Position numbers and translations under genes: made by a program. A DNA stretch of 64,000 bases from Cephalotus follicularis (Eukaryota; Streptophyta; Magnoliopsida; Oxalidales; Cephalotaceae). Below are positions 1 to 64,000 of this stretch, piece after piece. The notes beneath the pieces were generated by a model. That model was not told the DNA's origin, ran no database searches, and saw nothing but the letters and a program-made list of their open reading frames with translations. Numbering within the stretch: the first letter of the stretch is position 1; every line of letters starts with the position of its first letter. Where the stretch lies: the NCBI GenBank assembly GCA_001972305.1, contig BDDD01000044.1, positions 62,001 through 126,000 of the forward strand. The letters are read 5' to 3'.

Positions 1-19
1 AGACGACGCTCTAATTGTA

Positions 20-180
20 AACGTCGACGCGTTGAAGTCAAGTGTGTCAGTTGACCTGGACGAAGACTTAAAGCGGCGACGGTTTGTAAGAAAGTGTAAG
101 CGCTTTAGTCGGGATAGAAGTGGAGAACTCAGGTCAAGCCCATGACCGGCGACGGTTAGGGAGAAAACGTCGACGCTTTG
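20..180. repeat. GTCGAC palindrome cluster (dialect CGTCGACGC) at window start
   Basis: Two perfect GTCGAC cores (23-28, 169-174) are accompanied by decayed copies (GCGACGG, GTTGACC). Their flanks match the CGTCGACGC dialect of elements C, M, N and B. The cluster is degenerate, so spacing is less regular than elsewhere. Confidence 0.6.
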
Positions 181-610
181 AGCTACAGACAAAATGCAAA
201 ATCTGACTTTTTGGCATTTTGTGAGTGAAAATCTTTAATTTTGGACACGTGTCAGGCCAGGGGAGGATGATATGAGATGTTATCAGATGATCTAACAAGT
301 GTCATCACATGGATTGGTGGAATTTGAGCACATGGGCTGCCAAGAGAGAGAGTTGAGTTGTGTGAGAAAGGGAGAAGAATTGCCTCCCAAGTAACCCTTC
401 TATTTAACGGCTAAGAGGGTTGAACTCAGTCATTTTGGCTGAGAAGGAAAGTGCTCCTGCTCTGAGTGAAGTGGAGAATTCGTGGGAGAGCAAAAGAGAA
501 AGAAATTCTAAAGCAAAGTAAGGAAATTCTATACCCATTTATGTCAAAGCTTCCTCTGTTTTGATTCAAAATTATACAACAGATTGTTCTACTGATATCT
601 TGTTCAATTG

Positions 611-859
611 TTGATGAATTTTTGAATGGTTGGATGTTCTGGAAACCTTAGGATTTCCTCTTAAATTTTTATGCTTTGCATGTTTCAAGATTCTATCATT
701 TTCTTGATGAAAATTCATGTTTTAAATGGCTGTTTGGGTACTGTTTTATTCTTGGATTATGCAGCAAATTCTTTAAATTATTTCTTGCTCGTTTCTTGAT
801 GAAAAATTAAATGGTTGGATGTTTTGAAAACCTTAAGATTTCCTCTTTAACTTTTATGT
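611..859. repeat. Direct duplication, period about 185 bp
   Basis: The segment at 611-674 (TTGATGAA ... ATGGTTGGATGTT ... GATTTCCTCTT) recurs at 796-859 with few changes. It is a diverged tandem duplication within the LTR-like sequence. Confidence 0.7.
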
Positions 860-1403
860 TTTATGTATCTCAAAATTCGGTCGAATTCTTGATAAGAATC
901 AATGTTTGATTTTACTGCGCATGCCCTATTTTCATATGGAACCAGCCACTTTCAAAAATTCATAACGGATTTAATTCTCAACCAATTGTTATGATCTTGA
1001 GCTTTCTGAATTCTTAAAGAGGTCTAGTTTAATGTTTATGTTTTAAGTTTTATCTGAAAATTCTTATTTCTATATGAATTATCAGTTTTAGCAAAGCTAC
1101 GCAAAACTGTTTTTATGAACATATTTGAGTCAATTACTCAAATGAAGAGAAAAGTTTATGAATTGTGAAAGAAATGTTATGAAATGATTTTTATGAATGC
1201 TTTGAGCTGATCAATCAAAGTAAATCATGAATGAACCACCCTTGGATTGCGATCCAAGGGGAATGGAGCGACATGCTCAATGTTAATAGAGCGAGATGCT
1301 CACAGACATGCATGTGATGGAAGGATAGTTGTCGGGGAGTGCACAATGCCCCGTTGAAGCGGTGTAAAGGGTTCATTAAAGTTTTTATGACTTCTATGTT
1401 TAT

Positions 1404-1492
1404 GAAATGTTCTAGTTATGAGTTTGTAATTAGAAAAGTGATATGCTTTACGAAATGTTCTAGTTATAAGTATTGACTAGAAAAATGTTATG
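1404..1492. repeat. Short direct duplication, period about 50 bp
   Basis: GAAATGTTCTAGTTAT is followed by a T/A-rich stretch and CTAGAAAA-like sequence, and the pattern occurs twice in a row. No function is evident. Confidence 0.5.
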
Positions 1493-2243
1493 ATGAAATG
1501 TGTTTACTATAAAAATGCCTTACTAAGCTATTTTGAGCTCATTCCTTGCAATGTTGTTTTCAAATAAAATGTTTTCCGGAAATGAATGAATGGAGATTAC
1601 GAGCTTAGAGGAAGCTCTTAAGAAGGAGTTTTTATGAAAGAAAGGCTATGCGATGATGTTGCATTAATGTTTTTGTATGTAATAAGAACAAATTTTTTAT
1701 GCTGTATTATATGTTTATGTAGAAGGATGATCCTATGTATATGTAGACCAACGATATGGTTATTACATCTTTGCATAAGATGATTATGTGTAAAGTTTGA
1801 ATTTAAGATTGTGTATGATGTTGCAAGACATGAGTTTATGATGCAATGTACTTTTAGAGAAGAGTACCAAAGGATGTAACGTTTCACACCCAACATAACG
1901 CAACCGATCCTCGGAGTTCGCTTTGAGCTATTAGAGAGCTCGGGTCGGGGATCTTACATGTCATATGTCAACAACATATGTCTGTAGCATTCTTGTGGCT
2001 TGCAGGGACACCCTAATCTAACTGGATGTGCAGATGGGATGCATCGGTTTGGTCGGTGGTAAAGGGTACATCCAAGAATCAACTCTCCTTAGTATTCTCA
2101 TTGTCTATGATGGGATGCTATGTGGGAACTGCTCCCGGGTTCCATACCTTGATCTGTGGTGTATTATTATCTATGATGGTATGCTGAGTATGAGTGCATG
2201 GGTGTTCTCCGTTCCTTTCCATTTTGCCGGGGTTAGCGAGCTG

Positions 2244-3932: not shown

Positions 3933-3934
3933 TA

Positions 3935-8769: not shown

Positions 8770-8862
8770 TAAAGGCGTCGACGCTTTGTCAAGGAGTCGA
8801 CGGGAATAACTAAAAAACATGAAAGTGTCGACGCTTTCTATCAAGGCATCAACGGTTTAACT
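8770..8862. repeat. GTCGAC palindrome cluster, distal part of C LTR
   Basis: Cores GTCGACGC, GTCGACGG and GTCGACGC are joined by a decayed ATCAACGG. The first two cores are 20 bp apart and the last two are also about 20 bp apart. Confidence 0.7.
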
Positions 8863-9593
8863 TGCAGAATCAAAAACTAACTAATATTAAAGCATACAAA
8901 TAAGAGATTAACAAAGCAGTAAATAAAATAATTGAAATATGTAAAGAAAGGATGGTTTTATGGTATAGAAACTCACCATAGATTATATTGAACAATTCAC
9001 TTACTTGAACGATCAAACCTTGATAATCAACGGTAGCTAGATCGATACGGAGTGCGACCGTGATGACAAATCGTATGAGTAGTCATGATAGGTGTATATG
9101 GTGTGTGGCAGAGGCGACAAATCTTATGAGTAGTCATGCTAGGTCTATACGAAGTGTGTTCGGCGTGGTAAACCGTATGAGTAGACTCCATTGATTGCAT
9201 TCAAAACCATTCATTCAGCAACATTCATATTCACTGACAAGATGTTTGTTTATTTTAATCAGACAGACACAGTGTGTATCAAGGCAGAAAATTGAATAAC
9301 AAATCGAATATTCGAGGATTTTCACTAATGGGATTGTAACAATACAATCTAATAGCTTGTTCTAACCCTAAAAACCTTAAATGTTGAGCTACTAAACAGT
9401 GTAAAATAAAAACTACAAGAATTAAAGAAGATAACTAAAAGGGTGGCTAAAAAGCTTGTCACTAACTTTGCACATTGTTTATGGCCGGCCTTGTAGTGTA
9501 TTCATACTTACAAAGTTGCTAAAAAACGGAAATAAAACAACCCTAATACAAAACTGGCAAAAATCTGAACTTTTCATATTTGCTGCTATCGCA

Positions 9594-9892
9594 AGCGTCG
9601 ACGCTTATGTCTTGGGTATCGACGGTTTGGCGTTTTTCATTAACTGAGATCCGAGATTTAAAGCATTAAGCGTCGACTTGAATATTCAGCAAAGTTGCGT
9701 TAAGCGTCGACGCTATCGATCAAAGCGTCGGCGGTTTTGGTGAAGCGCTGACTCTTTATGTAAAGGCGTCGACGCTTTAAGTGCATAATTTGATTTTTTA
9801 AACTTATGCGCTAGGGCGTTGACACTTTGCATTAATCTAGTGGCGCTTTCCTATTAAGCATCGATGCTTAAAGTCCAGGCATCGAGGCGTTG
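9594..9892. repeat. GTCGAC palindrome cluster, proximal part of C LTR
   Basis: About ten sites of the form (A)GCGTCGACGCT lie here, including a perfect 14-bp palindrome AAGCGTCGACGCTT at 9594-9607, plus decayed forms (ATCGACGG, GTTGACAC, ATCGATGC). It begins about 210 bp from the LTR start in element orientation. Confidence 0.75.
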
Positions 9893-11068: not shown

Positions 11069-11073
11069 TCCTC

Positions 11074-13741
11074 TGTAATACCCTGTTTGTCCGTGCGTAT
11101 ATTTTCGGGCTTTTAATTTGTTTTGTTAGTAGGTGGCTTTAGGTTGGGTTATGTGTTTTGGGCTGACTGATACCAGCCTAGGTTTTTGGATATGCTAGTA
11201 TGTGTTTATGCATAAGTAGATTGAATTTTATTTTAATTTATTAAAAATAGTTTTTATTGACAAATTAAAAATCAAATCCTTTATTTTAAATTCTTTTCTT
11301 CTCATTCTCTTTTCTCTCTCCCTTATCTCCCCCGTGCATTTCTCCCTCTCATAACTCCTTTCCCCGATTCTTTCCTTCTTTCCATCTTATCCTCCTAAAA
11401 ATCCTCCTACTTCATTATGCTATCATATTTTTGTTTCCTAGTTTCCTTATTCCAGCCGAAATTAGCTCTCTTTTCTGTTTAAGAATGCCCTTGTCCACAG
11501 TTTTGCATCACCTCTATCTCTCTCTCCAGTTAGCCGAACCTGCAAGCTGAGAGTTGTTTTGTTTTTCGTGCAATTGTCATCAAAATTAGGTTTGTTCTTT
11601 ATGGTTCAGTTTAGAGATTGTTTTGTTTTATTATGTACAACCTTGGCAGACTATTGAGTCTTGTGTTTTCTGTCCTTTTCCTGTGAACAGTAGTTGTAAG
11701 CCTTAAGAATTTTATGTTCTTCCTATAGTTTTGTGTCGTCATTACAGGTTGGTTTCCTTTTGTTTTGTTGTGATGCTTAATCTTGTCTTGTTATGATTTC
11801 GTTTGCATATCTATATAGATTGCTAGAATTCAATTTTGATTCCTACCACTCTATGAATTCTCATTGTTTATAAGTTATTTTATCAGCCCTTAGGCGTCTG
11901 CATAAGTTATAATCTGGTTTTTAATAACTGGTGGTTGGTATTTTTAACAATAATTTGGCTATCTATATATGTATGCAATTGATTAGAATTTTGTCTCACT
12001 TTTAAGTATAGCTTATGTCAGTAATCTATCTTATGTTCAGTGTTCTATAACTATTTTAAATACCTCATAAAGTCTCATTGATTAGTTGTGATCCACTGGT
12101 AATGAGAAATCTAGGTTTTGATAGAAAAATTGCATAGGACAGTTAGTTTATTGTGTTCTGTCACGCAGTACAGTCGATTGTTTCCATAAACAGTCGGCTA
12201 TTGTGTAGTCGGATGTTTGTCAGATCAGTCGACTGCTATGCCTTGCATAGTCGACTGGACCCCTGTCTCAGTCGACTGGCTGCAGTTTTGCTTGGGTGGT
12301 CGGCTGGCCATGTGGTATAGTCGACTGCCCAACTTAAAACAGTCGGCTGGTCAGTCTAGGAAATTCCTGTTTTCAAGTTTCCATATCCGTTTTCCTTCTT
12401 GTTGAATCGGAATCAATTTTTAACACTGTTATAATCCTGATTTAGTGTCCGTAATTGTTTCAAACCATTATATGGATTATTTCATATTTTATAAATTTTT
12501 GTGCTACCGAAGGTGCAGTTTAGAAATTGTTGATATTTTGATAAATTATTTTGGGAGCGCATAAGGTACGGATACTATCGTTCTTTGGCTATCCTAATCT
12601 GATTTTATTGAAGCAATTCAGTTTTTACCTTTTGATTTTATTGAAATGAATTTCTCGCTGTTGGATATTCGGTTTTATCTTGAACAACATATGTTTTATT
12701 ACTAAGTTTAATATTACCGATTTTACAATTAGAACATGGTTTTCACTATCGACAATATGTTAAATGTACATGACTTTCACCATCGAAGGTATGTTAACTT
12801 TCAGATACAAATATGATTATGATTTCAGATATGTGTAGAATTGTTTAGAAAATTTGTTTATGTTTTAAATTGTTTTAGAATAAAACAATATTTTTAGCAT
12901 AATAACATACAGAGAAAGACTTACCTATGAGGTATCATAGGCATGTTCCTTTGGCACAGAGGACATGACACCTATCGTGACGGTGTGATGGTCTACAGCG
13001 TCTCTTTTTATATATATCCTGAGGGTAGGGTATGGATCCATTTGAGGCGTATGAGTCGACTATAGTTATTATCAGATTCAGATTCAGATTTTGGGATTGA
13101 TTGTGTAGTGCCATACACATCTTTCTGTCAGAGCATGTTGGAATATATATATATGTGCATCAGATTCTCTGTTATGAAATTTTGAAATCAGATAAAGTTA
13201 TGAATTATGAAAATCTTGATAAATGCTTTTTGGAAAGTTATGATGATCTTATAACTGTTTTCATTAAATATCCTGGTTTACATTTTTAAGAGTATTTAAC
13301 TATGTTATTTTTTGGTTTTAAAGTTCAAATATTTTGTTTACTGTTTTACTTTCCTTATCCGTAGTAGGGTTTGCTCAGCCGTCTTTTTGTTTCCATGTGG
13401 CAGGTTATCAGGAACAACGGCGCAATGTGTGATGAGTGATTTCCACCTATATATGAGGATCATCTAGGAATTTTGATCCTATTTCGTTTATGTGGTCTCA
13501 TGGTCATGTTAGAGCCTGTATTTTAAACAATGTCATGTTTTTCATATTATGACTTCGGATTATGATTTTTGTTTTGTTATAAGTTTCAGACTATGTTTTC
13601 AGATTATGAAATGTTACGTTTAGACCACCACGTATTTTGAATAAACATAAGTTTATGCTTTGAGTTCATGTTTAGATATTCTATTTTGTTTAGTTCCTTT
13701 TTATGACCTGTAAGCGCTCCCAATCCTCCGGGGGTGTTACA
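11074..13741 (+). mobile_element. 5' LTR of element A
   Basis: The 2668-bp LTR runs from TGTAATACCC to GGTGTTACA. It has a CT-rich leader at about 11285-11345, a palindrome cluster at 12172-12350, and at about 13369-13415 a block GGTTTGCTCAGCCG ... GGCAGGTTATCAGG that is also present in LTRs E and F. Confidence 0.93.
12172..12350. repeat. GTCGAC palindrome array (dialect CAGTCGACTG) in 5' LTR of A
   Basis: Nine sites of the form AGTCG(A/G)CTG or decayed relatives lie here. Successive core-to-core distances I count from the first site are 20, 15, 20, 22, 21, 28, 21 and 22 bp. Confidence 0.85.
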
Positions 13742-17823: not shown

Positions 17824-17984
17824 TGTAACGCCCGAGATTTCCGTGTAATATTATTTCACAAGTAAATGTACTCTTAAATTGTGGAATTAATAAAAGAGGG
17901 ATTTTCCAAATTTGGTGATGTTTTCCCAATCCTTCTTATTTAAAGCTTTGTTGTTTAATGTCAAAAGAATGTTGTAAAGGACTA

Positions 17985-18137
17985 AAACGACGCTGTCTTG
18001 AAGGAAAGACGTCGACTCCTTTATGAAACACATCGACGCCTTTTTGGCAGAATGTTTCACGTAAATGCATGCACATGCACCTCGATCGGGACCAAAGACA
18101 TCGACGTCTTTCGGAAAGACGTCGACGTCTTAAGTTA
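17985..18137. repeat. GTCGAC palindrome cluster 1 in LTR N
   Basis: ACGTCGACTCC, ACATCGACGCC, ACATCGACGTC and ACGTCGACGTC occur about 160-310 bp into the LTR. Spacing within each pair is 20-22 bp. Confidence 0.8.
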
Positions 18138-18426
18138 GAATGTCTTGCATGTTACCTCCTAACAGAAAACGTGCAAGAGGGTATCAAGTGGAGGCCTTCT
18201 GCAGGCGCCTTGGTGCATGGTAGAGACGTGTTGTGCATGCTACTTGTTTTCAGACATGCATGTATCAGAGTGGAGGGAGAGGAATGACACATGGGGTTGC
18301 ATGCAGGCCATGGTGCCACCCTCAATACCTGCTCCTGCAAAACAAACGGGTCAGATTTGGGAAAGGGGAATAATGGACTGTTTGTACATGCAACGAATTA
18401 GAAAGGGATAAGAGAGGACTTACCTG

Positions 18427-18434
18427 CATAAAAC
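18427..18434 (+). promoter_or_regulatory. TATA-like box of LTR N
   Basis: CATAAAAC is followed by a pyrimidine-rich stretch (CTCCTCCTTATTCATC). The same 8-mer sits at the matching place in both LTRs of D, supporting a core promoter. No transcript evidence is available here. Confidence 0.5.
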
Positions 18435-18654
18435 TCCTCCTTATTCATCTCTGGGTTGGCTAAAACACTTTTGTAAGGAAACAGAGAGTAAGGAGAGAAG
18501 ATCACCATTGTTGAACATTGATGGAAAGCTTGAAAGCTTGGAAGCTTGGAGCTTGGAGCCACTAGTGCAACTTCGGGACGAATCTTTGGGAGTTGCTGTG
18601 ACCTGTTGGATACACCAAGGGGTGGACTTTCCTGTTCCTAACGTGGGACAAGAG

Positions 18655-20182
18655 GTAGGGGAAAGCCATGACTGTATCTCAAGTTATTATCCATGCTTAG
18701 TCTATGATTTTGAGTGTACTTTATGCATGATTCTTGAACTGTTTTGGTTACTGGTTTGATGCCATGACATGTTAGGTATGTGTTAAGTATCTGCATGTGG
18801 GTTTCTTGCCATGTTTACCCGTTGATATGCATGATTGTGGGTTGTTGAAGTTACTCTTTGATAAGTCGTGAGGTAGAAGACGACACTGTTGGAAATGACG
18901 TCGACTTCTTTTAGAATAACATCGACGCTTTTATGTATATACACTGTCGTTTTGAGGACCCGGACCCTAAAACGTCGACCCCTTTATAATTACATCAACG
19001 TCTTTCATGTTTTACCTCGACACTGACTGAGAGAGATCGACGTCCTTGGGAAGACGTCGACACCCAGGCTGCTTACCTTGTTTTTGTAGAAAAAGGCATC
19101 GATGCCTTTTAGTTAGACATCGACGCCTTATCGATGATACGCTGTCGTTTAAGGTTCCTTCTGTAGAAGAACAAGCTGACACTGAGGCTTGGATTTCGAC
19201 GCATGACTGGAAGACATCGACGTCTTTGGGGAAGACGTCGACGTCTTTGCTACTGTTTGAAGATTTCTTCATCGGATGACACGAAACGATCCCAATTCCT
19301 ATTTGGGTGCACTTGAGCATATGTATGCATTGCATATGTACTGTTTACTGCCTGATTGTGTACTGTTTGTGTGTTGATCACAATTTCTAATGTATTAACA
19401 CTTTGGAAATATATACATGTGTCCGGAATAAGATATTTTGGGTACAAAAATATGTATTGACCAAATAAAACATTTTCAACCGAACCAGTAATGATTTACA
19501 CTACTGAACTGTTTACTGATAATTTCTACAGAAAATACCTATTTTCAAATGTGTCACTCTTGTAAACATTTTGAAAATAACTTGACTGATGTGGATCAAA
19601 TCGACCACTACTGATTACTGTACTGTACTGCCTGAATTCATTGGTTGCTCTATGAATTACTATGTGATTGTGCTTGAACCACTAGTTGCATGGCGGAGAC
19701 TGCCAGCGCCGACTAGTGGAGGGTTGACCTAGGGGCCAGGAGTATGGCTGGGTAACTCACTGTACTGTTGCCTAGCTCGGTTGCCTTATGTAGGGGCCGA
19801 AGTGGGAGTGTAGCGTGGGGCCAGGAGTTGGCGGCGCTACACATACTGCCTGTTGTAGTCCTATGTGGACATCCTGACTGTTGTGGTCCTATGCGGACAT
19901 ACTGTACTGTACTGTTTACTGGTCCTTTACGGACATTACTGTGATTGTTGACGTAGCCCTGGCCGGGTTACTACTGCACCGTTATTGTACACATATATTT
20001 CTTATATATGTAACACTGATATTTTACTGTACTGATATACGTATTTTCATATATGTATAAAACTGGGTCTCCACTGCACTGCATCATTCATGCATTCATA
20101 TCATGACATGCACTGATTTTAATCTTGAGCTGCTGTTATGCTTTAGCCAAGTGAGGACAACGGCTAACCCCCTACTTTTCAG
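18655..20182 (+). other. Predicted LTR intron in N
   Basis: The donor-like AGAG|GTAGGGGAAAG at 18655 follows a conserved purine-rich exon-like segment ending CCTGTTCCTAACGTGGGAC. The acceptor-like box CCCCCTACTTTTCAG ends at 20182 and is followed by ATTGATG. Matching donor and acceptor boxes occur in B, D and H. This is inferred; splicing is not shown. Confidence 0.45.
18870..19250. repeat. GTCGAC palindrome cluster 2 in LTR N
   Basis: About a dozen sites (ACGTCGAC, ACATCGACG, ATCGATGCC and decayed forms) lie 215-600 bp after the donor-like site. They have the ACGTCGACGTC dialect flanked by CTTT. Confidence 0.8.
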
Positions 20183-20571
20183 ATTGATGCGTGGACTGGC
20201 TAGACGGACATGGGCGAAGATCCAGTTGTTGCTTTCTTCATTTTACTTCTCCTGTTGTGCATCAAACCTGTTGTGGTTATGCTTTTAAGTTGTACTGTTA
20301 TTTTGATTCTGTTCTTAAAGGAATTTAAACTTGTACTGTATTTCCCGCTCCGTTTTTATGGGCGATTAGCTTAACGTTTTGTACTGGAGTAGCGTGTGGT
20401 ATGGGACACACGTTACGGTTTACAGCTTATGGTTTTGTGCTTCCGCAACTGTTTGTACCTTGTTAACAGTTTAAGTTTTAAACTTCACGGTTTTGCATGA
20501 GCTGTATTGTATGTTAATTGCCTTTACCGCTTTAATGCTGCGTTTTTTTGTAAACGGGGTGTGACAAGTAT

Positions 20572-21295: not shown

Positions 21296-22394
21296 TGTAA
21301 TACCCTGTTTGTCCGTGCGTATATTTTTTGGGCTTTTAATTTGTTTTGTTAGTGGGTGGCTGTATGTTGGGTTATATGTTTTGGGCTAACTGATACCAGC
21401 CTAGGTTTTGGGATATGTCAGTATGTGTTTATGCGTAAGTAAATTTAATTTAATTTTAATTTATTAAAAATCAGTTTTTATTTTATTATTAAAAATCAAA
21501 TCCTTTATTTTAAATTCTTTTCTTCTCTTTCTCTCTTCTCTCTCCCTTATCTCCCTAGTGCATTTCTCCCTCTCATAAGTCCTTTCCCCGATTCTCTCCC
21601 TCCTTCCATTTTCTCCTCCTAAAAATCCTCTTACTTCCTTATCCTATGAGATTTTTGTTTCCTTCATTCCTTATTCCAGCCGAAATCAGTTCTCTTTTCT
21701 ATTTAAGACTGCCCTTCTCCACGGTTTTACGTCACCTCTATCTCTCTCTCCTGGTAGTCGAACCTGCAAGTTGAGAGTTGTTTTGTTTTTCGTGAAATTG
21801 TCATCAAAATAAAGTTTGTTCTTTATGGTTCAGTTTAGAGATTGTTTTGTTTTATTATGTACAACCTTGGTAGACGGTTGAGTCTTGTGTTTTCTCCCCT
21901 TTTCCTGTGAACAACCATTGTAAGCCTTACGAATTTTGTGTTCCTCCTACAGTTTTGTGTCGTCATTACAGGTTGGTTTCCTTTTGTTTTGCTGTGATGG
22001 TTAATATTGTCTTGTTATGATTTTGTATGCATATCGATGTAGATTGCTAGAATTCAATTTTGATTCCTGCCACTCTATGAATTGTCATTGTTTATATGTT
22101 ATTTGATCAGCCCTTAGGCGTCTGCATAAGTTGTAATATGGTTTTTAATAACTGGTGGTTGGTATTTTTAACAGTAATTTGGCTATCTAAATATGTATGC
22201 AATTGATTAGATTTTTGTCTCGCTTTTAAGTAAAGAATCTGTCAGTAATCTATCGTATGTTCAGTGTTCTATAACTGCTTCAAATACCTCATAGAGTCTC
22301 ATTGATTAGTTGTGATCCCCTGGCAATGAGAAATCCAGGTTTTGACAGAAAAATTGCATAGGACTGTTAGTTTACTTGTTCTGTCGCCCAGTAC

Positions 22395-22605
22395 AGTCGA
22401 CTATTTCCATAAACAGTCTGCTATTGTGTTTTGTGTAGTCGGCTGCCTGTCTGATCAGTCAACTGCTATGCCTTGCACAGTTGATGGGACCCCTGTCTTA
22501 GTCGACTGGCTGCAGTTCTGTTTGGGTAGTCGACTGGCCATGTGGTATAGTCGACTGCCCAGCTTCAAACAGTCGACTAGAGTCTTGTAACAGTCGGCTG
22601 GTCAG
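22395..22605. repeat. GTCGAC palindrome array in 3' LTR of A
   Basis: It is the counterpart of 12172-12350. It carries one more unit than the 5' copy: AGTCGACTAGAGTCTTGTAAC lies between two sites that are adjacent in the 5' LTR. Confidence 0.85.
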
Positions 22606-23357
22606 TCCAGGAAATTCCCGTTTTCAAGTTTCCATATCCGTTTGTCTTCTTGTTGAATCGGGATCTGTTTTTAACACCGTTATACTCCTAATTTGGTGTC
22701 TGTAATTGTTTCAAACCCTTATATGGATGATTTCATATTTTATAGATTTTTGTGCTACCGAAGGTGCAGTTTAGAAATTGTCGATATTTTCATAAATTAT
22801 TTTGGGAGCGCATATGGTACGGATACTATCATTCTTTGGCTATCCTAATAAGATTTTATTGAAGCAATTCAGTTTTTACCTTGTGATTTTATTGAAATGA
22901 ATTTCTCGTTGTTGGATATTCGGTTTTATCTTGAGTAAAATCTGTTTTATTACTAAGTTTAATATTACCGATTTTACAATTAGAACATGGTTTTCACTAT
23001 CGACAATATGTTAAATGGACATGACTTTCACCATCGAAGGTAAATTATTTAGAAAATCTGCTTATGTTTTAAATTGTTTTAGAATAAAACAATGTTTTTA
23101 GCATAATAACATGCATAGGAAAACTTACCTATGAGGTATCATAGGCATGTTCCTTTGGCACGGAGGACATGACACCTACCGTAGCGGTGTGATCGGTCTA
23201 CGGTGTCGCTTTTTATATATATCCTGAGGGTAGGGTATGGATCCAATTGAGGCATATGAGTCGACTCTAGTTATTATCAGATTCAGATTTTGGGATTGAT
23301 TATGTAGTGCCGTACACGTCTTTCCGTCAGAGCATGTGGGTCTCGCAAACCTCTTGC

Positions 23358-23365
23358 ACATATAT

Positions 23366-23410
<45 letters not shown>

Positions 23411-23411
23411 T
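23358..23411. repeat. (TA)n(CA)n microsatellite
   Basis: A run of TA dinucleotides interrupted by TACATACA passes into CA repeats. The 5' LTR at the matching place (about 13142-13154) has only a short TA run. Confidence 0.9.
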
Positions 23412-24007
23412 CAGATTCTCTATTATGAAATTACGAAATCAGATAAAGTTATGAATTATGAAAATCTTGATACTATGCTTTTTTGGAAAGTTATGATTAT
23501 CTTATCACTTTTTTAATTAAATATTCTGGTTTACATTTTTAAGAATATTTAACTATGTTATTTTCTGGTTTTAAAGTTCAGATATTTTGTTTACCGTTTA
23601 CTGTTTTACTTTCCTTATCCGTACTGGGTTTTGCTTAGCCGCGTTTTTGTTTCCAAGAGGCAGGTTATCAAGAACAACGGGGCAATGTGTGATGAGTAAT
23701 TTCCACCTATATCTGAGGATCATCTAGGAATTTTGATCCTATTTCGTTTATGTTGTCTAATGGTGATGTTAAGGCCTATCTTTTAAACAATATTATGTTT
23801 TTCAGATTATGGCTTATGATTATGATTTTGGTTTTGTTATAAGTTTCAGACTATGTTTTCAGATTATGAAATGTTACGTTTAGACCACCACGTATTTTGA
23901 ATAAACATAAGTTTATGCTTTGAGTTCATGTTTAGATATTATGTTTTGTTTAGTTCCGTTTTATGACCTGTAAGCGCTCCCAATCACTCCTGGGGTGTTA
24001 CATCCTC

Positions 24008-24197: not shown

Positions 24198-24578
24198 TGT
24201 CACACCCCGTTTTTCCACAACAAGACAACATATAAAGTGGTAAGGCAATCAACAGATATAATTCAGCTCATGCGATAATACGAATAAACAAAAACCTTCA
24301 GTAGCGGAAGCAATAACATAAATGAGCCGAATTTAAACATACATCACGCATCCCATACTACGTGATGCCCAACAAGTTTATAATATAAAACCCACGTCAT
24401 TGTCGATCGCCCAAAACGGAGCGCGATAAATACAGTACGAGATAACAAAATATCCTTTGTTACAATAATCCAAACAACATGATCAATGTTCATTATTTCA
24501 GTACATAAAATAAAAGGAGCAACTCAGTCTTCTCCATAAGCCTCCTTGCATGCTCCGTATCATATCCACTCCATCAAT

Positions 24579-26229: not shown

Positions 26230-26739
26230 CTTGTTGTTCCAAGTTAGGAACTGGAAAGTCCACCTCTTTGAGTTCCCAGGTTCTAGCCACAGTAGCTCCA
26301 AGATCCTCTTAGAAACTGTTACCCACGAGCTCCAAGTCTTTAGCTCCAACAGCTCAACAATGGTGGCCCTTACACTCACTCACACTCACTGGTTTTCTTT
26401 CCTTTCTTTCCTTTAGTGTTTTAAAGAGAGAGAGAGGAAGGAGGTGGTGTTTTATTATGGCAGGAACCTTCCACTTTTCTCTTTGCTTCACAGATAACCA
26501 CACACTCTCGTGCTCACCTTCTCACTCTCTGGTTTTGGCTCCGATCTTCCCTTCTGCAGGTTGCAGGTGAGGACAGTATATCCTATTGCATGCACTAGGT
26601 CAAGGACACGTTTTGAAGCATGCCTGGCAACACCCCAGCATGATCAACACGTCCCATTGTGCATGTCAAGGTGTCTGGATAATGCCTCAAAATTTCCCAT
26701 TGCATGCCATTCTGTCAGTGTTAATCGTGACAGATGTTC

Positions 26740-41107: not shown

Positions 41108-43463
41108 TGTAAAGACCTGAATTCCCCTTCTTTACTGTTTGGCACTGTTCATGCATATATTTCAATGTATTGAACTGTATTGTACCGTATTGAACTGTAT
41201 TGGATAATTGAAGGCTATCATATTGAGGTATTTTTGTACCTACTGCTTATAGTATTGATCATATGCATGTATAGTCAGGAGATTCGGGAAGAGTTTTGGA
41301 ACTTTGGCTGGATTGACTATATAAGCCAATCCCTTAGCCATTTCTCCTCATTTCTCTCATTTCCCATTCTCTCTCTACCCTTCTCCTTCTCTCCCTCTCT
41401 CTCTCCCAGTCGAGCAGCCTTTCTCCTCATCCCTAGCAGCTTCAGATTTCTCCTCCAGCAACAAACAACAATTGCAAGTCCCCTCTTGGCAGCTTGAACA
41501 AGAAAACAAAAGGTTTTGGGTGTTTCTAGCCATTATTGATTGGAAGCTCAGCTATTCAAGCTCCAATTATTTATAGGATTTGTTTACTTAAATTGCCTAC
41601 TGCTAGCATGATTGATTGATTGAATTGAATGCTCGTATTGAATGGAATTGTGGTATGAGGGTTTTCAAATGGAATCCTTGATATAACTGATCTAGGAATA
41701 TTGAAACTGTAAATTAAAGGTTGTAACAAGTTTTACTAACCTTAAAGGAGTAATTTTAACCCTTGGTCTTCAAAGAATAGCTTTAAATTGCATTTTGACC
41801 TGCGATCGGCTACTTTTTCTGCTAAAAACTGGTTTTTCCTAGCACAGACGTCGACACCTAACCCATTGGCGTCAACGCCTTGAGCTTTTGAACTGTTTTA
41901 CTATGGTTTTATCTGACGTTAGTGTCAACGCGTATCCTTGGCATTGACGCCTATGACCTGGGATTCTTTCTCCCAGGAAAAACATCAACGTAAATCAATC
42001 AGCCATCTCAGTGTCAACGTTTTTGGTTTACGTGTCGACGCCTTGACCCAAGGACGTCAATGTCTAAACCCATTGGTTCATAGAAAGGTGAAGCGCATAG
42101 ATGCCTACATCAACGCCTAAACCTACTGGTTTTTAAAAAATTGATGCGCATCAAGGCCTCCTGCCAAGGACGTTGATGCCCATTAGCCTATTATTGAAAG
42201 TGAATGTTAATCGTCGATGCGTATAGCCATACCGTCGACGCTTAATGCCCTGTTTTGGAAAATTGATGTTTTAAAGCTAGATTTCAACTCCTTTTTACAT
42301 TGCCGCTTGACCTGAGCCTCACTTGAGGTATTCAAGCATTTGAAAATAGTTTTCAATAGTTTTAATGATTGTATTGACATATTGATTGATTGATTTGTTG
42401 AGCCATAAGTGTCATGAATGTAAGTTCGGATAGTTTGATGCACACTCCCATTTTCCTCTTAGATATCACCACTTACTAGCATTGTACTAAGAGATTGATT
42501 GTATTGTATGAATTCTATAGAGTGACCCTATGATTCACATTGGCGTGTTAGGTTGTAGACTCTATCCACGTATCTCATCGATCATTTCATTTATTGTATT
42601 GTCTTGCTGACAAGCATTATTGATTGATTGATGATTGATGCTCCCTGAGTGCCGTAGCTCCTCGACGGTTGTAGCTCCCCGACGGCAGAAGCTCATCGAT
42701 ATTGTATTGACCCAGACGTAGGCTAGAAGATCTATGAGTCCCAAACCTGATCAGTCTGAGATAAGTAGATAGATCTCCCACCCTTTTTGAAGGACTACTT
42801 CCGTGGGATTGATTATTGTCATTGATTGACATTGTATTGACCGAGGTCGCACGCTCTATAGGATATGATTGATTGATTGGGTATTTTATACACCACCACC
42901 GAGTGTCTGCTATTGATTGATTATTATAGATCCTATCTGTATGCTCTGTTATGGGCCTGTGCCATATGAATAGTTAGATCACCCATTGTATGCATGCACT
43001 TACCATATCAGGCATTGATATTGTACATAGCACATTGATATTGCACATTGTACATGCATTCATGTTGCATGGCGGTTCTGCTTAGCTTTTGACTAACCCC
43101 ATCCTACGGGGTGGGGCTGTGTGTGCATTTTGTGTGGCACAGGTACGCCAACAAGTAGCATCGGATAGAGGAATTGAAGATTTGATTTGACCGCATGACC
43201 ATTTTGTTTGGCAAAGCTTGTACTGTATATTGTATCAAAAGGACTGATAAATGTATTGTATTGAAAATGGCGTGTATTGTATTGATGGAAGAGTGTATGG
43301 ATGAAAGGTTAATGTATTGGTTTACAAGAGAACTATTGTACCTTCCGCATATTGAAAACTTTTAAGTTTTTTCGCATTTTTATTTTGCTAGTCCTGACCA
43401 TTGTATTGTGTATTGGTTTGAGAGTAATGTCATGTGTCCGTCCTCCGGGCGCGGGGTGTTACA
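41108..43463 (+). mobile_element. Solo LTR K
   Basis: The 2356-bp LTR runs from TGTAAAGACCTG to GGGGTGTTACA with CTTTG on both sides (41103-41107, 43464-43468). A CT-rich leader is at about 41340-41410, and a palindrome array lies at 41845-42245. The many ATTGATTG and TTGTATTG steps give it a simple-sequence character. There is no interior, hence solo. Clade is uncertain; the ends fit the Tekay LTRs nearby. Confidence 0.94.
41845..42245. repeat. GTCGAC palindrome array in LTR K, partly decayed
   Basis: Sites GTCGACACC, GTCAACGCC, GTCAACGTT, GTCGACGCC, GTCAATGTC, GTCGATGCG and GTCGACGC lie here. Spacings of 21, 21, 22 and 21 bp occur between neighbours. About half the cores have lost the CpG (TCAAC). 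Confidence 0.8.
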
Positions 43464-48215: not shown

Positions 48216-49535
48216 GTAGGGGGAAGTCGTTTTTGCAACATAATTTCAATTGATAATGTTTTTGATGAAATAAAATGCATGTTTATGTTATATTGTGAGC
48301 TTGGAACGTGTATGTGGATAAATATGTCGTTTTGGGTTGTGTTGGGTGTGTGATTGTGGCTGTTTTAGCAACTGGTTTTTACACCTGCTGCAGAATCCAG
48401 CCGACTGCCCACCTTGGGCAGTCGACTGCCTATGGGTCCAGTCGACTGTTCTTGGGAGGCCAGTCGACTACCCATGTTCGTTTCCAAAAAATTTCTGCAG
48501 GGGTTGTGTAGTCGACTGCTGTAGGTCAACAGCCGACTGTGGGAGTGTGGACAGCCGACTGTCCTAAGGGCCAGCCGACTGTCAAGTGAGAACAGCCGAC
48601 TGTCTAGATAGACAGCCGACTGCCTGGTTGTGTAGCCGACTACCTGGGTGTGGCAGCCGACTACTTTGAGGAGGACAGCCGACTGCCAGTGGTGGGCAGC
48701 CGACTGTTGGGGGCCTGTTTTGCCCGTGAACATATGTATGCATCGTGTATTGTGATGTTTTGCTTCGTGAAGCTTTATAAGCTATTTTGGGTATTGTGAC
48801 TATTGAGTATGAACTGTTATAACACATTTCTGGAAGTGCATTGTAGTTAATGAAAAATCATTACTTTACACGAAATTATATGTTTTGAGAAATTTATATT
48901 TTCGAACCGTGAAAATGGCTTCCAAAAACACCGTGAACAGAGTTTTGTGATATTGAGAACCGTGAACCGTGACATCGTGACAATGAGTTTGTTTTCAGGT
49001 ATTTTGTTTTATAAACTACTTGGAAAACTGTTTTGAGCATCGAGATGATTGTTATTGTGATTGAGCTTGACCGTGATTGCTGATTGTGATTTTGATGGTG
49101 GCCGTACTAGTTGCGTGGCGGAGATGCCAGCGATGACTAGTGGTCTGGTCGACTCAGGGGCCAGGAGTTGGCTGGGTGACTTACTGTATTGTGACCTGCT
49201 TCGTGCCGTCAGGAGTCGGGGCCGATGTGGGATGTACGATGTAGGGGCCAGGAGTTGGCGACGCTCTTCGTACCCACCGTGTACCGTGAACCGTGAACCG
49301 AGTATTGTGTAGTCCTTTGGACTTGTTTGAGACTGTGCATCGTGATATTGTGACATCGTGAATACTGTGATATCGTGACATCGTGTTTTGGGCATATGCA
49401 TATCTATATTTATATATATGCATCGAGATATAGTATATACTGCATCCACTGCATTTATGCTTGGTTTTATTGATCTGTTGTTGTTTTTATGACTTTGGCC
49501 GAGTGAGGACAAACGCTAACCCCCTACTGTTGCAG
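48216..49535 (+). other. Predicted LTR intron in the 5' LTR of D
   Basis: The donor-like site is TCTAAG|GTAGGGGGAAG and the acceptor-like box is AACCCCCTACTGTTGCAG|ATTG. A similar arrangement is kept in N, B and H although the sequence between is strongly diverged. If spliced, the exon from the TATA region would join just upstream of the LTR end and PBS. Unproven. Confidence 0.45.
48398..48705. repeat. GTCGAC palindrome array (cluster 2) in the 5' LTR of D
   Basis: Fourteen sites of the form CAG(T/C)CGACTG lie here. From the site at about 48510 onward the distances are 21, 22, 20, 21, 20, 20, 21, 22 and 21 bp. The array lies inside the predicted intron. Confidence 0.9.
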
Positions 49536-54672: not shown

Positions 54673-54814
54673 TGTAAAGCCCGAGATTTTCATTTATGTG
54701 TAATATTGCTTTTCCAATGTAATTTTACACCTTGTGTTAATGAGAATCGTGTTTTCCCTCTTTCCCGTGTTGAAATGTTGCAAGAAAGTGTGTTGTTGTG
54801 TGTTTTTGTGCAGG

Positions 54815-54930
54815 GGCAGCCGACTGGACCCTTGCTGAGGTGAGGCAGCCAGCTGCTATGAGGAAGCAGCAGGCTGGTGGGAGTGTCGGCAGAAACAGCC
54901 GACTGCAAAGCCCAGGCAGTCGACTACCAT
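54815..54930. repeat. GTCGAC palindrome cluster 1 in the 3' LTR of D
   Basis: It is as 47738-47875, but one 21-bp unit is missing between the first two sites. Confidence 0.8.
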
Positions 54931-55273
54931 GCGCCAGATAGCCCACGTGCTGTCTGCCTTAAGTGACATAAAGTGGGGTGTTTTGGTTTTTATTGCAGAT
55001 GGCAGGGAGGGGGCCGGGTCTCTATCCATAAAACCCAGCCTTTCTCTCCTCTTTCTCCATCATTCTTTGTGTTTTCAAGAGATTTCTTGTGAGTTTGAGA
55101 GTGGAAGTGTGTGTGTGTTGTTGCTACGGAGCTTGTGTGTTGGAACCGTGAAGCTTGGAGGCTTGACAGTGGGAGTCCGGACCTGTGGAAGGTTGCTGGA
55201 CGTGTTGGGGTTGCAAGAGCTTCGGATTTAGACATAAAGAGGTGGATTTCAACTCCTAACTTGGAGTTCTAAG

Positions 55274-56511
55274 GTAGGGGGAAGTCGTTTTTGCAACATA
55301 ATTTCAATTGATAATGTTTTTGATGAAATAAAATGCATGTTTATGTTATATTGTGAGCTTGGAATGTGTATGTGCATAAATATGTCGTTTTGGGTTGTGT
55401 TGGGTGTGTGATTGTGGCTGTTTTAGCAGCTGGTTTTTACACCTCCTGCAGAATCCAGCCGACTACCCACCTTGGGCAGTCGACTGCCTATGGGTCCAGC
55501 CGACTGTTCTTGGGAGGCCAGTCGACTACCCATGTTCGTTTCCAGAAAATGTCTGCAGGGGTTGTGTAGTCGACTGGTGTAGGTCAACAGCCGACTGTGG
55601 GAGTGTTGACAGCCAACTGTCCTGAGGGCCAGCCGACTGTCAAGTGAGAACAGCCGACTGTCTAGATAGACAGCCGACTGCCAGTGGTGGGCAGCCGGCT
55701 GTTGGGGGCCTGTTTTGCCCGTGAACATATGTATGCATCGTGTATTGTGATGTTTTGCTTCGTGAAGCTTTATAAGCTGTTTTGGGTATTGTGATTATTG
55801 AGTATGAACTGTTATAACACATTTCTGGAAGTGCATTGTAGTTAATGAAAAATCATTACTTTACACGAAATTATATGTTTTAAGAAATATATATTTTCGA
55901 ACCGTGAAAATGGCTTCCAAAAACACCCTGAACTGAGTTTTGGGATATTGAAAACTGTGAACCGTGACATCGTGAAAATGAGTTTGTTTTCAGGTATTTT
56001 GTTTTATTTGAGCATCGAGATGATTGTGATTGTGATTGAGCTTGACTGTGATTGCTGATTATGATTTTGATTGTGGCCGTACTAGTTGCGTGGCGGAGAT
56101 GCCAGCGATGACTAGTGGTCTGGTCGACTCAGGGGCCAGGAGTTGGCTGGGTGACTTACTGTATTGTGACCTGCTTCGTGCCATCCGGAGTCGGGGCCGA
56201 TGTCGGGATGTACGACATCGGGGCCAGGAGTTGGCGACGCTCTTCGTACCCACCGTGTACCGTGAACCGTGAACCGAGTATTGTGTAGTCCTTTGGACTT
56301 GTTTGAGACCGTGCATCGTGATATTGTGACATCGTGAATACTGTGATATCATGACATCGTGTTTTGGGCATATGCATATCTATATTTATATATATGCATC
56401 GAGATATAGTATATACTGCATCCACTGCATTCATGCTTGGTTTTATTGATCTTCTGTTGTTTTTATGACTTTGGGCGAGTGAGGACAAAGGCTAAGCCCC
56501 TACTGTTGCAG
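55274..56511 (+). other. Predicted LTR intron in the 3' LTR of D
   Basis: The same donor-like TCTAAG|GTAGGGGG and acceptor-like TACTGTTGCAG|AT are present as in the 5' LTR. Inference only. Confidence 0.4.
55455..55697. repeat. GTCGAC palindrome array (cluster 2) in the 3' LTR of D
   Basis: It is as 48398-48705, but lacks three consecutive units (20+21+22 = 63 bp) after the site at 55673. Confidence 0.88.
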
Positions 56512-56892
56512 ATCGATGCTGCGTTTCGAATATCGCCGGGCATGGACGTATCGGACTGTGAAATGACGGAGTTGTATGCTTTAAGTGCTTTGTTAAGCAG
56601 TGTAGCGAACATGTTGTACTTTGGTTTTTGTACTAATGTTTTGCTATTGTTGTTGTATCAACTTTGGATCATGCTCCGCTTGTGGGCTTTTTATCTATGT
56701 TTTACCGTGGATGTTGTGCGAATCTAGCGGTATGGGACGCATGGTTCCGTTTGTTTTCAGCTTATATTATAGATGCTTCCGCAAGATGATGTCTGTTTAA
56801 AAGTTTTAAATTTTATCGTTCTTTGTATAAGCTGGATATCTGTTAAATTGCCATGTTGTATGTTGTTAATGCGAGCGGGGTGTGACAGTAAT

Positions 56893-58510: not shown

Positions 58511-58552
58511 TGATTTCATGACTTAAGGAACTGTGTACGGGTATAATGGACA

Positions 58553-58765: not shown

Positions 58766-58771
58766 AAAGGG

Positions 58772-61101: not shown

Positions 61102-61114
61102 AAGGATGGGAGGA
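61102..61114 (+). promoter_or_regulatory. Polypurine tract of element G
   Basis: AAGGATGGGAGGA lies directly before TGTAATGTCCCGG, the 3' LTR start. Confidence 0.85.
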
Positions 61115-61476
61115 TGTAATGTCCCGGATATAATAATAATAATAATAGTGCCCGGTGCCATTTAGAGGCACCAGGCGCTGCACAAATAGAAAGAGGGATA
61201 GATGAGAGAACGGGAGAGAGAACCAGAGAAAGAGCGGCAGAGAGAGGCGTTGGGCGCGCCGGAGAAGACGACGCTTAGAAGCACAGAGCTGGCGTGACAC
61301 AGCCACCACCACCGACGGTAACCTCCTTTCCCTCTTCTTCTCTTTTCTTTCCTTTTCTCCCTATCACTGTCGCCATCACTTCCATGCGTTCCACCATTGG
61401 AATCGTCATGGTAGGAGGCCGGTCTTCGTCCCGGGGACCAGCTACGCCCATTTTGGTGTCTGTCAAGGCGTGGTTT
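61115..61476 (+). mobile_element. 3' LTR of element G, first 362 bp
   Basis: It starts TGTAATGTCCCGG, followed by an (ATA)n run. It parallels 56961-57290 until GGCGTGGTTT, where LTR H begins. The five bases before H, GGTTT (61472-61476), should recur after H outside the window. Confidence 0.88.
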
Positions 61477-61644
61477 TGTAATAACCGCAAATTCAATTCG
61501 TGTACATTGTAACATTGATTAATAAAATGTGCACTCATTTTAATTTAATATCCAATTATTATAATTTGTGATTAGTAATTGCTTGGGATGAATGGATGTA
61601 CAATTGGTGAAGTAACAAGCTAAGAAACCAAAAAACAGCCTTTG

Positions 61645-61772
61645 ACAGCCGACTGCCACAGGTGGCAGTCGACTTCCTGGTTTGTGAAGGGGCAGCCGAC
61701 TGTCACAGGGGAGCAGTAGACTGCCATATGCGTGTTGTGGGCAGTCGACTGCCAGTTGAAGATAGTCGACTG
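61645..61772. repeat. GTCGAC palindrome cluster 1 in LTR H
   Basis: CAGCCGACTG, CAGTCGACTT, CAGCCGACTG, CAGTAGACTG, CAGTCGACTG and TAGTCGACTG lie here. Distances are 20, 27, 21, 28 and 21 bp. The cluster starts 169 bp into the LTR. Confidence 0.85.
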
Positions 61773-62674
61773 GATTTGTACAGAACAGGTGTCTGTGCAT
61801 GCCTGTTAAACTGAACAAAGAGGAGATTGCATGGTGGGAAGGTGTCACATGAGATAGGAGCTGCCAGAGCATGCAAAAAGGCATGCTTGCATGTCCTCTA
61901 TTCCCTCTGCAACTTTCAGACCTGCAACCTGCAAGAATCAAAAGAGAGAAAGGTGAGAAAGAGGTGCATGTGAGAGAAAGAGAAATGTGAGAAAGTTGAG
62001 TAAATGAACTCTGGCGAATTCAAGGCTTATATCAACTGTTGAGTTGTGAGATGAGTGTTAGAAACACTGAATATTGAGGAGAGTTGCTGGAGATTATTGG
62101 AAGCTTGCATTGGAGGATTGAGAGAGCTCAAACAAGGAAGAGAATTGAAGCTTTGGAGTTCTTGGTAAGTCCTTAGTTCGAACTCACTGTTAAATGACGA
62201 TAATGTATCTAGGAGGAATATTGAATACCTTCTGTCAAACATGTTTAAGGTTAACAACTTTAGAATTTGATTTAAAATGGTAAGGGAAAGAAGTAGGAAT
62301 GTGAATATGGAAGCTTAGAAAATTTTAATGATTCTAATTCGAATTGTAATTGTTGGTTAGTTGTATTATGTCTATTGATTTCCTTAAAGTATAGTCATAC
62401 CTCTGTCAACACATTAAGATCATAGGATCCGAATTTGAATAATAGTTGACATAGAGCTCAAAAGAAGTTGTAAAATGGATTAAGGGATTGGTAATAGGCG
62501 ACTCTTGAAGTAGTAATTGTATCTCATAATTAGAAACCTACTGGTACTGATGCATGTGTCCATAAACATGCACGTTTAGATTATATTCTGCTGAATTGAA
62601 ACATTGTTGGTGAAAGAGACTTGGAAACTCAAAGAGAAAGATCATTCCAATTGATCTTGGGATAGCGATTTAAG

Positions 62675-63664
62675 GTAGGGGTAGTGATATGTTATGAAAG
62701 ATATTTTATGCATATTATGTATGTTATTTTCTGTATGATTGCATGTGTGAAATTGGACATTGAATTGCATACAAACTGCTACTGCCTACATTTTCTGGGC
62801 AGAAGCAGTCGACTGTTCTTCATGACAGTCGACTACTCAACCCTATCCAGTCGATTGCCAAGGCAAAGCAGTCGACTACTCAACCAAAGCAGTCGACCAT
62901 TATTGTCTTGTATATGCTACCCTATCCAGTCGATTGCAACGATCGAATGAACTATGTGCTATATGCACAATTCATGGTTTAACCATCATTTTCAAATGAA
63001 AACTATTGTTTACAAGGAACTACTGATTTTATCACCTACTGTTTTATTACCTACTGTTTGTTTCCAAGTGGAAACCACTACTGTAGTGATATCGTTTCCT
63101 TATATGAGATGTACGATCACTGAAATGTTATATGTTTCTAAAGAAAACATTTTATATTGCATATCATATATATATGTAATATTATTGAACTGAATTGACT
63201 GATTGATTGTCTATGCATACCGTGGACGAGTGATGGGAAGATATCACCGATTACGGCGGTGAGCCTACGTGCCAGGAGTTGGCTAGTGCTTATTCACCAT
63301 ACTGATCTGCATCGCAGACCGTGCACTGTTATCTGTCCGCTAAATGCCGGCAGCACTGTTTACCTCCTATCATCAGCGAAGTTGGGGTGATAGCTAGGTG
63401 GCTCGACATAGGCTAGGGGTTAGCGACGTCTTGAGCCCAATACTGGTCTTCGGACAAACCACTGGACTGATTGATTGTACCCTTGTGCGGTATTCTTGCA
63501 TATGGATTGTCTATGGTCACTTGGCATGTTTGCTTATATATTGGCACACTGAAATGTTATTTTAAATATAAATTGTCATACATGTTGCATTCATATATTC
63601 CTTAGCATGGATTATCTTCCCACTTAGCCAAGTGAGGACAACGGCTAACCCCCTACAATTTCAG
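62675..63664 (+). other. Predicted LTR intron in H
   Basis: The donor-like TTTAAG|GTAGGGGTAG matches D and N. A stronger consensus donor, TTG|GTAAGT at 62165, follows a GGAGTTC exon-like end and could be used instead. The acceptor-like box CCCTACAATTTCAG ends at 63664. Inference only. Confidence 0.4.
62803..62940. repeat. GTCGAC palindrome cluster 2 in LTR H
   Basis: CAGTCGACTG, CAGTCGACTA, CAGTCGATTG, CAGTCGACTA, CAGTCGACCA and CAGTCGATTG lie here at distances of 20, 22, 21, 21 and 37 bp. The cluster lies downstream of the donor-like site. Confidence 0.85.
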
Positions 63665-64000
63665 ATTAAGCGAAGAGACCGGAATTACTGCTGAAGCTTG
63701 GAGAGCTTCTAGCTTCGACTTAAGGTTGTTGTTTTGTTATGATGTACTGTAACTTGTATTGTATCGAATGAATCACACTCTGTGTATTGTTGTATTTTTT
63801 CCTTATGTTAAGGATATTGTTAAATTGTACCCGCACGTAGCATGGGATACGTGCGGATGCCTTATATTATAATCCAGTTTTAACTGCTTTCGCTTATGTA
63901 TTTGATTTGTTATGCGAATGCTGGATTATTATTCTTATGCTTCTTTCTGATATCTCCATATATGCTTGTCTTAACGTAAACCGAAATAATAGGGTGTGAC

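Follow-up and report, generated by a model that had tools for sequence, protein, structure and literature searches.

In the genome of Cephalotus follicularis (GenBank assembly GCA_001972305.1, 1.577 Gb), positions 62001-126000 of contig BDDD01000044.1, a stretch of 64 kb that we call the window, hold nested Ty3 retrotransposons whose long terminal repeats (LTRs) carry arrays of short palindromes centred on GTCGAC. The question raised by this locus is why LTRs of different elements should share such a palindrome, and at a preferred distance from one site to the next. An earlier note, made from the letters of the window alone, had proposed either an operator-like array for a dimeric DNA-binding protein or a target of 21-nt small RNAs. 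The operator is the reading that our analysis suggests is best supported, because the sites have two-fold symmetry and are tightly spaced, the DNA between the sites of one motif type (D1, below) is not a repeat, two superfamilies of elements carry arrays, and the sites are conserved in the closer comparisons between LTRs. In this form, we consider it probable that the arrays are clustered sites for a dimeric, sequence-specific nuclear protein that would control the transcription or silencing of the LTR, its effect presumably being activating or anti-silencing.

The GTCGAC palindrome and its dialects

GTCGAC occurs 58 times in the window, where 6.6 copies are expected from the dinucleotide composition, and this ratio of 8.7 is the highest among all 6-mers of the window. 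The recurrence claimed by the earlier note extends to 20 further loci (L009-L028; arbitrarily placed, 10 kb each, from 19 contigs, 194.3 kb excluding N), which hold 98 copies, or 6.2 times the expectation, spread over 18 of the 20 loci (all except L015 and L018), compared with 22 copies of the backwards-read control CAGCTG. In this sample two overlapping words, CGTCGA (7.0 times) and GCGTCG (6.6 times), rank higher. Four internal element blocks totalling 12.5 kb contain no GTCGAC at all, and in dinucleotide-shuffled LTRs (six LTRs, 50 shuffles each) the sites of the dialect proper to each LTR number 0.04-0.40, as against 7-19 in the real sequences. One additional locus, L029, repeats an LTR of L009 and was included in the comparison of spacer likeness, being excluded from the analyses of gaps, flank symmetry, random placement and phasing.

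Both of the dialects described earlier were seen. The first, D1, is YAGTCGACTR, which includes CAGTCGACTG and has the common variant CAGCCGACTG, giving the degenerate form CAGYCGRCTG. The second, D2, has the core RCGTCGACGY, extends to the longer palindrome AAAGRCGTCGACGYCTTT and has the degenerate form (AAAG)RCRTCGAYGYC(TTT), its outer CpG often being changed to CA or TG. A third palindrome form, around TGTCGACA, was seen in one locus, L049. The note had also spoken of one-step decays of GTCGAC, and variants are indeed present, but CAGCCGACTG is no simple decay, since it is frequent and stands mostly in one orientation per LTR type. Over 135 non-redundant sites, the two-fold symmetry reaches past the core into the flanks, as far as about offset 5, so that the repeat unit is dyad-symmetric, as in the repeated motifs (RM boxes) of Sireviruses discussed below. 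Pairs of sites are abundant throughout the genome, with 48,687 perfect D1 pairs (CAGTCGACTG-N0-30-CAGTCGACTG) vs 166 for the pattern read backwards, and 8,205 and 8,198 D2 pairs on the two strands (GCGTCGACGC-N5-20-CGTCGACG) vs 12 and 16, counts that include many copies from the same families.

Arrays in the LTRs of the window

The window consists of three Ty3 elements, E1, E2 (on the minus strand) and E3, together with the partial LTRs C, D, X and K. The Pfam domains found in 32 distinct open reading frames (ORFs) include gag, protease, reverse transcriptase (RT), RNase H and integrase of the Ty3 type, and none of them belongs to Ty1/copia. The earlier note had the array-bearing families span Tekay, Athila and Ty1/copia; its Tekay part stands in the form of Ty3 elements that are Tekay-like, a label that comes from the LTR ends, the Tf2-1 SH3 domain and a chromo match below the cut-off, and not from a tree, while Athila was not established and copia is absent from the ORFs scanned. 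The features, in the coordinates of the window, are as follows.

21..176, strand not assigned: window start, D2-type sites
8777..9823, strand not assigned: B, two groups of D2-type sites
11074..13741, plus: E1 5' LTR (Ty3, Tekay-like), termini TGTAATACCC...GGTGTTACA; LTR pair 87% identical; Tf2-1 SH3 and sub-cut-off chromo in internal ORFs
12171..12349, plus: D1 array of E1 5' LTR, 7 sites, gaps 20,35,22,21,49,22
17824..20564, plus: X, E2-like LTR within the E1 pol region, putative solo LTR, homologous at both of its ends to the E2 LTR
18898..19250, plus: D2 array of X, with more sites around 18009-18131
21296..24002, plus: E1 3' LTR, read from the LTR pair and its ends
22394..22600, plus: D1 array of E1 3' LTR, 8 sites
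24198..27071, minus: E2 LTR, 3' in sense; LTR pair 94%; Ty3 gag and integrase SH3
25508..25626, minus: D2 sites of E2 3' LTR, with more at 25935-25995 and 26749-26810
30286..33169, minus: E2 LTR, 5' in sense; initiator methionine tRNA (iMet) primer-binding site (PBS) at 30271; D2 sites 31597-31649, 32022-32102, 32847-32908
36444..36570, strand not assigned: G, D2 sites upstream of a minus-strand Ty3-type gag ORF
37683..40406, minus: C, E1-related LTR, ~60-68% identity over the main blocks
39110..39315, minus: D1 array of C, 9 sites, gaps 21,21,21,28,21,22,42,20
41848..42243, strand not assigned: H, D2 sites in a repeat shared with L010, L016 and L021
47594..49911, plus: E3 5' LTR (Ty3); iMet PBS at 49916
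48398..48706, plus: D1 array of E3 5' LTR, 13 sites; second group of 6 sites at 47738-47868
54673..56887, plus: E3 3' LTR; D1 arrays 54817-54926 (5 sites) and 55456-55701 (11 sites)
61478..63970, plus: K, LTR-like region, distant homologue of the E2, E3 and X LTRs, with a homologue in L023
61646..61772, plus: D1 array of K, 6 sites; second array of 5 sites at 62806-62936

Three other features of the window can be mentioned here. The D LTR, which is related to E1, has 21-bp tandem repeats without GTCGAC at 46427-46481 and 46818-46905. On the plus strand, 35732-35838 matches snoR71, a family of plant snoRNAs (42.5 bits vs a cut-off of 40), and overlaps a Ty3-type gag ORF on the opposite strand. 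A pair of direct repeats of ~340 bp (87%; 56955-57291 and 61138-61476) flanks a 41-bp minisatellite of ~15 copies at 58770-59401.

Within the window, one dialect predominates in each LTR. When sites are counted at one mismatch, the numbers of D1 and D2 sites are 7/0 in E1, 19/0 in E3, 9/1 in C and 11/0 in K, and 0/14 in E2, 0/14 in X and 0/11 in H. These LTRs are not all independent, as the description of them as unrelated families would require: E2, X, E3 and K are distant homologues, ~58-66% identical over the main blocks outside the arrays, and E1, C and D form a second related group. Several in-window families are thus distantly homologous, and the unrelated case is found elsewhere in the genome, in the Sirevirus-type copia elements described below. 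Such homology is what would be expected if one ancestral LTR segment had been inherited, or copied between elements by recombination, without any independent origin of the arrays. However, between the blocks that E3 shares with X and E2, the interval 48317-49085 of E3 carries a D1 array where both of its homologues carry D2, so the dialect changed in place, which tells against simple inheritance of a segment. Together with the evidence from copia elements given below, this leaves common descent of the arrays an improbable account.

Homology between LTRs also allows sites to be compared with the DNA that separates them. Between the E1 5' LTR and C, 65 of 70 site positions but 64 of 109 spacer positions are identical, vs 61/70 and 99/109 between the two LTRs of E1 itself. 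Because the motif can attract the alignment, it was masked before aligning; the register was kept in E1-C (6/7 and 7/8), E2-L027 (13/14), L016-L021 (10/10) and the second group of K-L023 (4/5), with identities of 0.79-0.86 for sites and 0.53-0.72 for spacers. The controls formed by the two LTRs of the same insertion gave 0.87 for sites vs 0.91 for spacers in E1, and 0.89 vs 0.95 in E2. Sites are therefore better conserved than spacers, in the closer LTR comparisons only.

This conservation bears on a further possibility, namely that the CpG-containing palindromes serve as sites for a host repressor or a methylation reader, and are carried by the elements despite their effect. Many variants are indeed CpG transitions: among D2 sites, 35 are intact, 54 have one outer CG changed to CA and 38 have lost the central CG (palindromic patterns being halved from counts on both strands). 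Sites that were purely a liability would not be expected to be conserved in related LTRs, and loss of the central CpG is rare in D1, with 3 such sites beside 17 that are intact and 37 that carry the T to C variant. We regard a silencing target of this kind as unlikely.

Spacing of the sites and the DNA between them

Gaps were analysed in arrays of at least 3 sites over the window and L009-L028. Clustering at 20-22 bp, as counted in the earlier note, is borne out: 66 of 87 D1 gaps fall there, where random placement gave a mean of 8.4 and a maximum of 18 in 2000 runs, as do 41 of 118 D2 gaps (mean 9.8, maximum 21, in 2000 runs). The distances that the note had listed for its element F match the gaps of array C, in which the 42 skips one weaker site. 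Nearest-neighbour gaps of up to 100 bp give a similar picture, with 60/83 at 20-22 bp for D1 and 64/166 at 19-22 bp for D2. Once spacers at least 70% alike are taken out, the counts are 35/55 for D1 and 29/101 (19-22 bp) for D2. Among the genome-wide matches listed, the 69 plus-strand D1 pairs, all from contig C1, have 57 at 19-22 bp, 12 at 27-28 bp and 0 elsewhere in the allowed 10-40, and 44 of the 51 plus-strand D2 pairs listed are 19-22 bp apart (allowed 14-29). Several of the longer D1 spacers of 27-28 bp, among the matches listed and in K at ~61715-61744, share a ATGCGTGTTGTG-like word, perhaps a second site.

The claim that two helical turns place all sites on one face of the DNA is weak. 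For D1 gaps longer than 23 bp (n=20), a period of 10.5 bp does not fit (R 0.30), while a period of 7, one of 12 periods tried, does (R 0.64), and the class of 27-29 bp is off the helical phase; D2 gaps (n=66) fit 10.5 bp broadly, without sharp tuning (R 0.31). We therefore reject strict helical phasing.

A period of 21 bp could also be produced without any protein, by slippage or tandem duplication of a 21-bp minisatellite unit. There are places where this seems to happen. In L049, at 281-620, the third palindrome form stands in near-identical tandem units of ~50 bp with two sites each, the whole unit including its spacer being repeated, and this has the look of a young array that is expanding by duplication. 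Tandem Repeats Finder reported a period of 21-22 in 20 of 209 motif-free rows, which overlap one another, for example in the D LTR. The DNA between sites, said in the earlier note not to be conserved, is also more alike within D2 arrays than between them (0.60 vs 0.50; shuffled 0.37), partly because the CTTT/AAAG arms of the palindrome are still included in this comparison. For D1, on the other hand, the note was right: spacers are 0.41 identical within arrays and 0.38 between arrays (shuffled 0.37), and since they are about equally alike in both, the D1 period does not come from repetition of a 21-bp unit. Moreover, the sites outlast the spacers in the closer LTR comparisons. Duplication may thus seed arrays, but it does not explain their persistence, and as a full account of the spacing we give it little credence.

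The same spacing equals a common small-RNA length, and all sites of an array are mutually complementary, as would suit palindromes acting in the RNA of the U3 (the unique 3' part of the LTR), either by pairing in hairpins and dimers or by guiding 21-nt small RNAs. The common variant argues against such a role, because it keeps pairing in E1 and C, where the sense form AGTCGGCT retains a G-U pair (8 vs 0), and breaks it in E3 and K, where AGCCGACT gives a C-A mismatch (15 vs 1). In addition, the D1 spacers are unconstrained, the constraint covers only ~10-16 bp of each 21 bp, and the gap classes of 27-29 and ~31 bp break a 21-nt register. An element acting as RNA is therefore very improbable, and the small-RNA alternative raised by the earlier note is disfavoured with it.

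The binding of a dimeric protein would account for these properties. One dimer would occupy each palindrome, and the minimum spacing of 20-22 bp would be the packing distance of adjacent dimers, so that symmetry, minimum spacing, unconstrained D1 spacers and a U3-side position would all be accounted for, the arrays lying in the non-coding U3-side part of the LTR, upstream of TATA-like boxes. Binding would raise transcription from the LTR or shield its promoter from silencing. The different dialects may be read by related proteins, or by a single protein that has two modes, and in that case an LTR would carry mainly one dialect and related LTRs could switch between them. From these patterns in the DNA we infer the binding itself, the host origin of the factor, and an activating or anti-silencing rather than a repressive effect. 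CBF/DREB proteins were considered as the binder for their RYCGAC site, a barley CBF2 site being one instance, and no support for them was found in a literature search judged from its listing; LBD proteins, which recognize CGG..CCG, were considered too.

Sirevirus-type elements and known motif arrays

The case for arrays outside one line of descent comes from Ty1/copia elements. L009, taken with L029, is such an element, with Retrotran_gag_2 and RVT_2 domains, LTRs 99.6% identical over 972 bp, and a CA/ATTGG-TATCAGAG junction and polyC tract, features described for Sireviruses. A 3' ORF with a Transposase_32 match is taken for a putative env-like gene, and a GTCGAC at 9469 precedes it. When its LTR is compared with five regions of the window, no similarity is significant (best E 0.047), yet this LTR contains GTCGAC seven times, along with three pairs of D2-like sites (at most 2 mismatches) 21 bp apart; in two of the pairs the partner site has no exact GTCGAC. 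The earlier note had held that its view would fail if all arrays traced to one ancestral LTR segment, and this LTR suggests that they do not.

Ten further copia loci were drawn from a list of 150 scored, spread down the list, with 2.2 kb upstream of the RT taken for each. L036 and L037 have D2 arrays of 13 sites each, and they alone among the ten show the polyC of Sireviruses ahead of the PBS; it is by this polyC and the PBS, next to an RVT_2 hit, that they are assigned as Sirevirus-type. Arrays are thus present in 3/3 of the Sirevirus-type copia elements seen. The other eight loci have 0-1 sites, which again speaks against inheritance from a common segment, though the PBS is visible in only four of them (L030, L031, L032 and L034), so the LTR of the other four may lie outside the stretch taken, and they make a weaker negative control. 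Over the ten loci combined, exact GTCGAC is not enriched (5 vs 4 CAGCTG). Ten Ty3 loci with a Tf2-1 SH3 domain, also 10 of 150 and each taken with 2.2 kb downstream, include three with clear arrays, namely 18 D2 sites in L042, 5 D1 sites in L045 and 9 GTCGAC in L049.

Several observations weigh against the operator reading. Among the same Ty3 loci, four have a few sites (L040, L041, L044, L048) and three have none (L043, L046, L047). With the motif masked, the register is lost or reduced in E3-L020 (2/13), the first group of K-L023 (2/6), E2-L028 (9/14), L027-L028 (7/16), E2-X (7/14), X-L027 (4/14) and H-L021 (4/11), so that a footprint is seen in the closer comparisons only; in several of these pairs site identity is below spacer identity (e.g., 0.42 vs 0.63 in L027-L028), and the same-insertion control of E3 puts sites above spacers (0.82 vs 0.73). 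Dialects can be mixed: L020 has a D1 array followed by D2-type sites within ~100 bp (5668-5965), possibly in one mixed LTR, the L009 LTR has 1 D1 and 5 D2 sites, and three of the ten sampled Ty3 stretches, L041, L044 and L045, hold 2, 2 and 5 D1 sites plus 2 D2 sites each, the two dialects being far apart in L044 and L045. Lastly, TATA-like strings in the Ty3 LTRs lie 150 or 669 bp (E1), 240 bp (K) and 714 bp (E3) downstream of the arrays, and neither this looser distance nor the D1 gap class of 27-29 bp is explained by the proposed mechanism.

The statement of the earlier note that no element of this kind had been described was mistaken. In the sections covered here, Bousios et al. (2010, PMC2829016) describe palindromic RM boxes in Sirevirus LTRs, present in many copies and clustered upstream of the TATA box, and further copies ahead of the ENV-like gene; the motif is reported to be specific to Sireviruses and to have a CGG-CCG signature except in Tnd-1, and no common binding protein was identified. 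The RM of the Vitis Sirevirus, CGGTCGACCG, contains the GTCGAC core (PMC2829016). The arrays here resemble RM boxes in being palindromic, LTR-clustered and upstream of TATA, in sharing the core of the Vitis motif and, in L009, in the site that precedes the putative env-like ORF. The number of at least 8 copies per element is reached with 19 sites in E3 and 14 in E2 in one LTR, 13 each in L036 and L037, and 7 and 8 in the two LTRs of E1; the L009 LTR has 6 at one mismatch, and 8 D2-like sites in its array at two mismatches. The position shortly upstream of TATA is found in L009 (92 bp from the last GTCGAC to TATAAAA), L036 (106 bp) and L037 (89 bp), and is looser in the Ty3 LTRs, at 150-714 bp. 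Arrays of RM boxes form a CpG island; for the arrays here, the observed/expected ratio of CpG taken over whole LTRs is 0.59-0.87 in six regions. The CGG-CCG core is absent from the base frequencies of both D1 and D2, as it is from Tnd-1 in that paper, and E1-E3 are Ty3 elements, unlike L009, L036 and L037. Judged from these features, the Sirevirus-type arrays belong with the known RM boxes apart from CGG-CCG, and the Ty3 arrays differ in host lineage as well, and so are not counted among them. What appears to be new is that Ty3 elements have arrays, that two superfamilies share the core in one genome, and that there is a spacing rule and a swap of dialects, neither of the latter two being seen in the sections of PMC2829016 covered. 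No report of GTCGAC arrays in Ty3 LTRs turned up in the open-access literature, mostly judged from search listings.

The nearest functional analogue is found in the targets of VANC proteins in Arabidopsis VANDAL transposons, described in the covered parts of PMC5735166 and PMC10398659 as short motifs, dense in non-coding DNA and arrayed in one orientation, in fast-evolving tandem arrays that differ in motif between related elements, the VANC6 motifs also occurring in the unrelated AT9TSD1. The likeness lies in the density of short motifs, the difference between relatives and the sharing with an unrelated element. VANDALs, however, are DNA transposons with other motifs that encode their own binder, and no element-encoded binder was identified for the arrays here, which lie in LTR pairs with Ty3 or Ty1 domains and not in VANDAL-type Mutator-like elements (MULEs). 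The heat-shock elements of ONSEN/COPIA78 LTRs and the U3 boxes of Tnt1 are symmetric sites for host factors, repeated in U3, with known stress responses. They resemble the present arrays in their symmetric U3 repeats and differ in that known response. The symmetry of Tnt1 box I is mentioned in PMC2829016, and PMC6911290, in the part covered, deals with palindromes at insertion sites.

A broader interpretation can be offered tentatively, and we think it possible but doubtful. One host DNA-binding system, a protein or a small paralogous family, may be exploited in parallel by chromovirus-like Ty3 elements and Ty1 Sireviruses, whose LTRs would have converged on the GTCGAC-core palindrome at the 20-22 bp spacing of dimers, swapping dialects as the family diversifies, so that the arrays would form a genome-wide cis code for activation or anti-silencing. 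The arrays offer a concrete bait of 10-16 bp for the factor that the Sirevirus work left unnamed, and dialect swaps at homologous LTR positions would record the co-evolution of the elements with their regulator. If a protein does read these sites, much of the retrotransposon load of this 1.58 Gb genome would depend on one recognition system common to two superfamilies, which, if true, could be part of the reason for the success of some lineages in a host.

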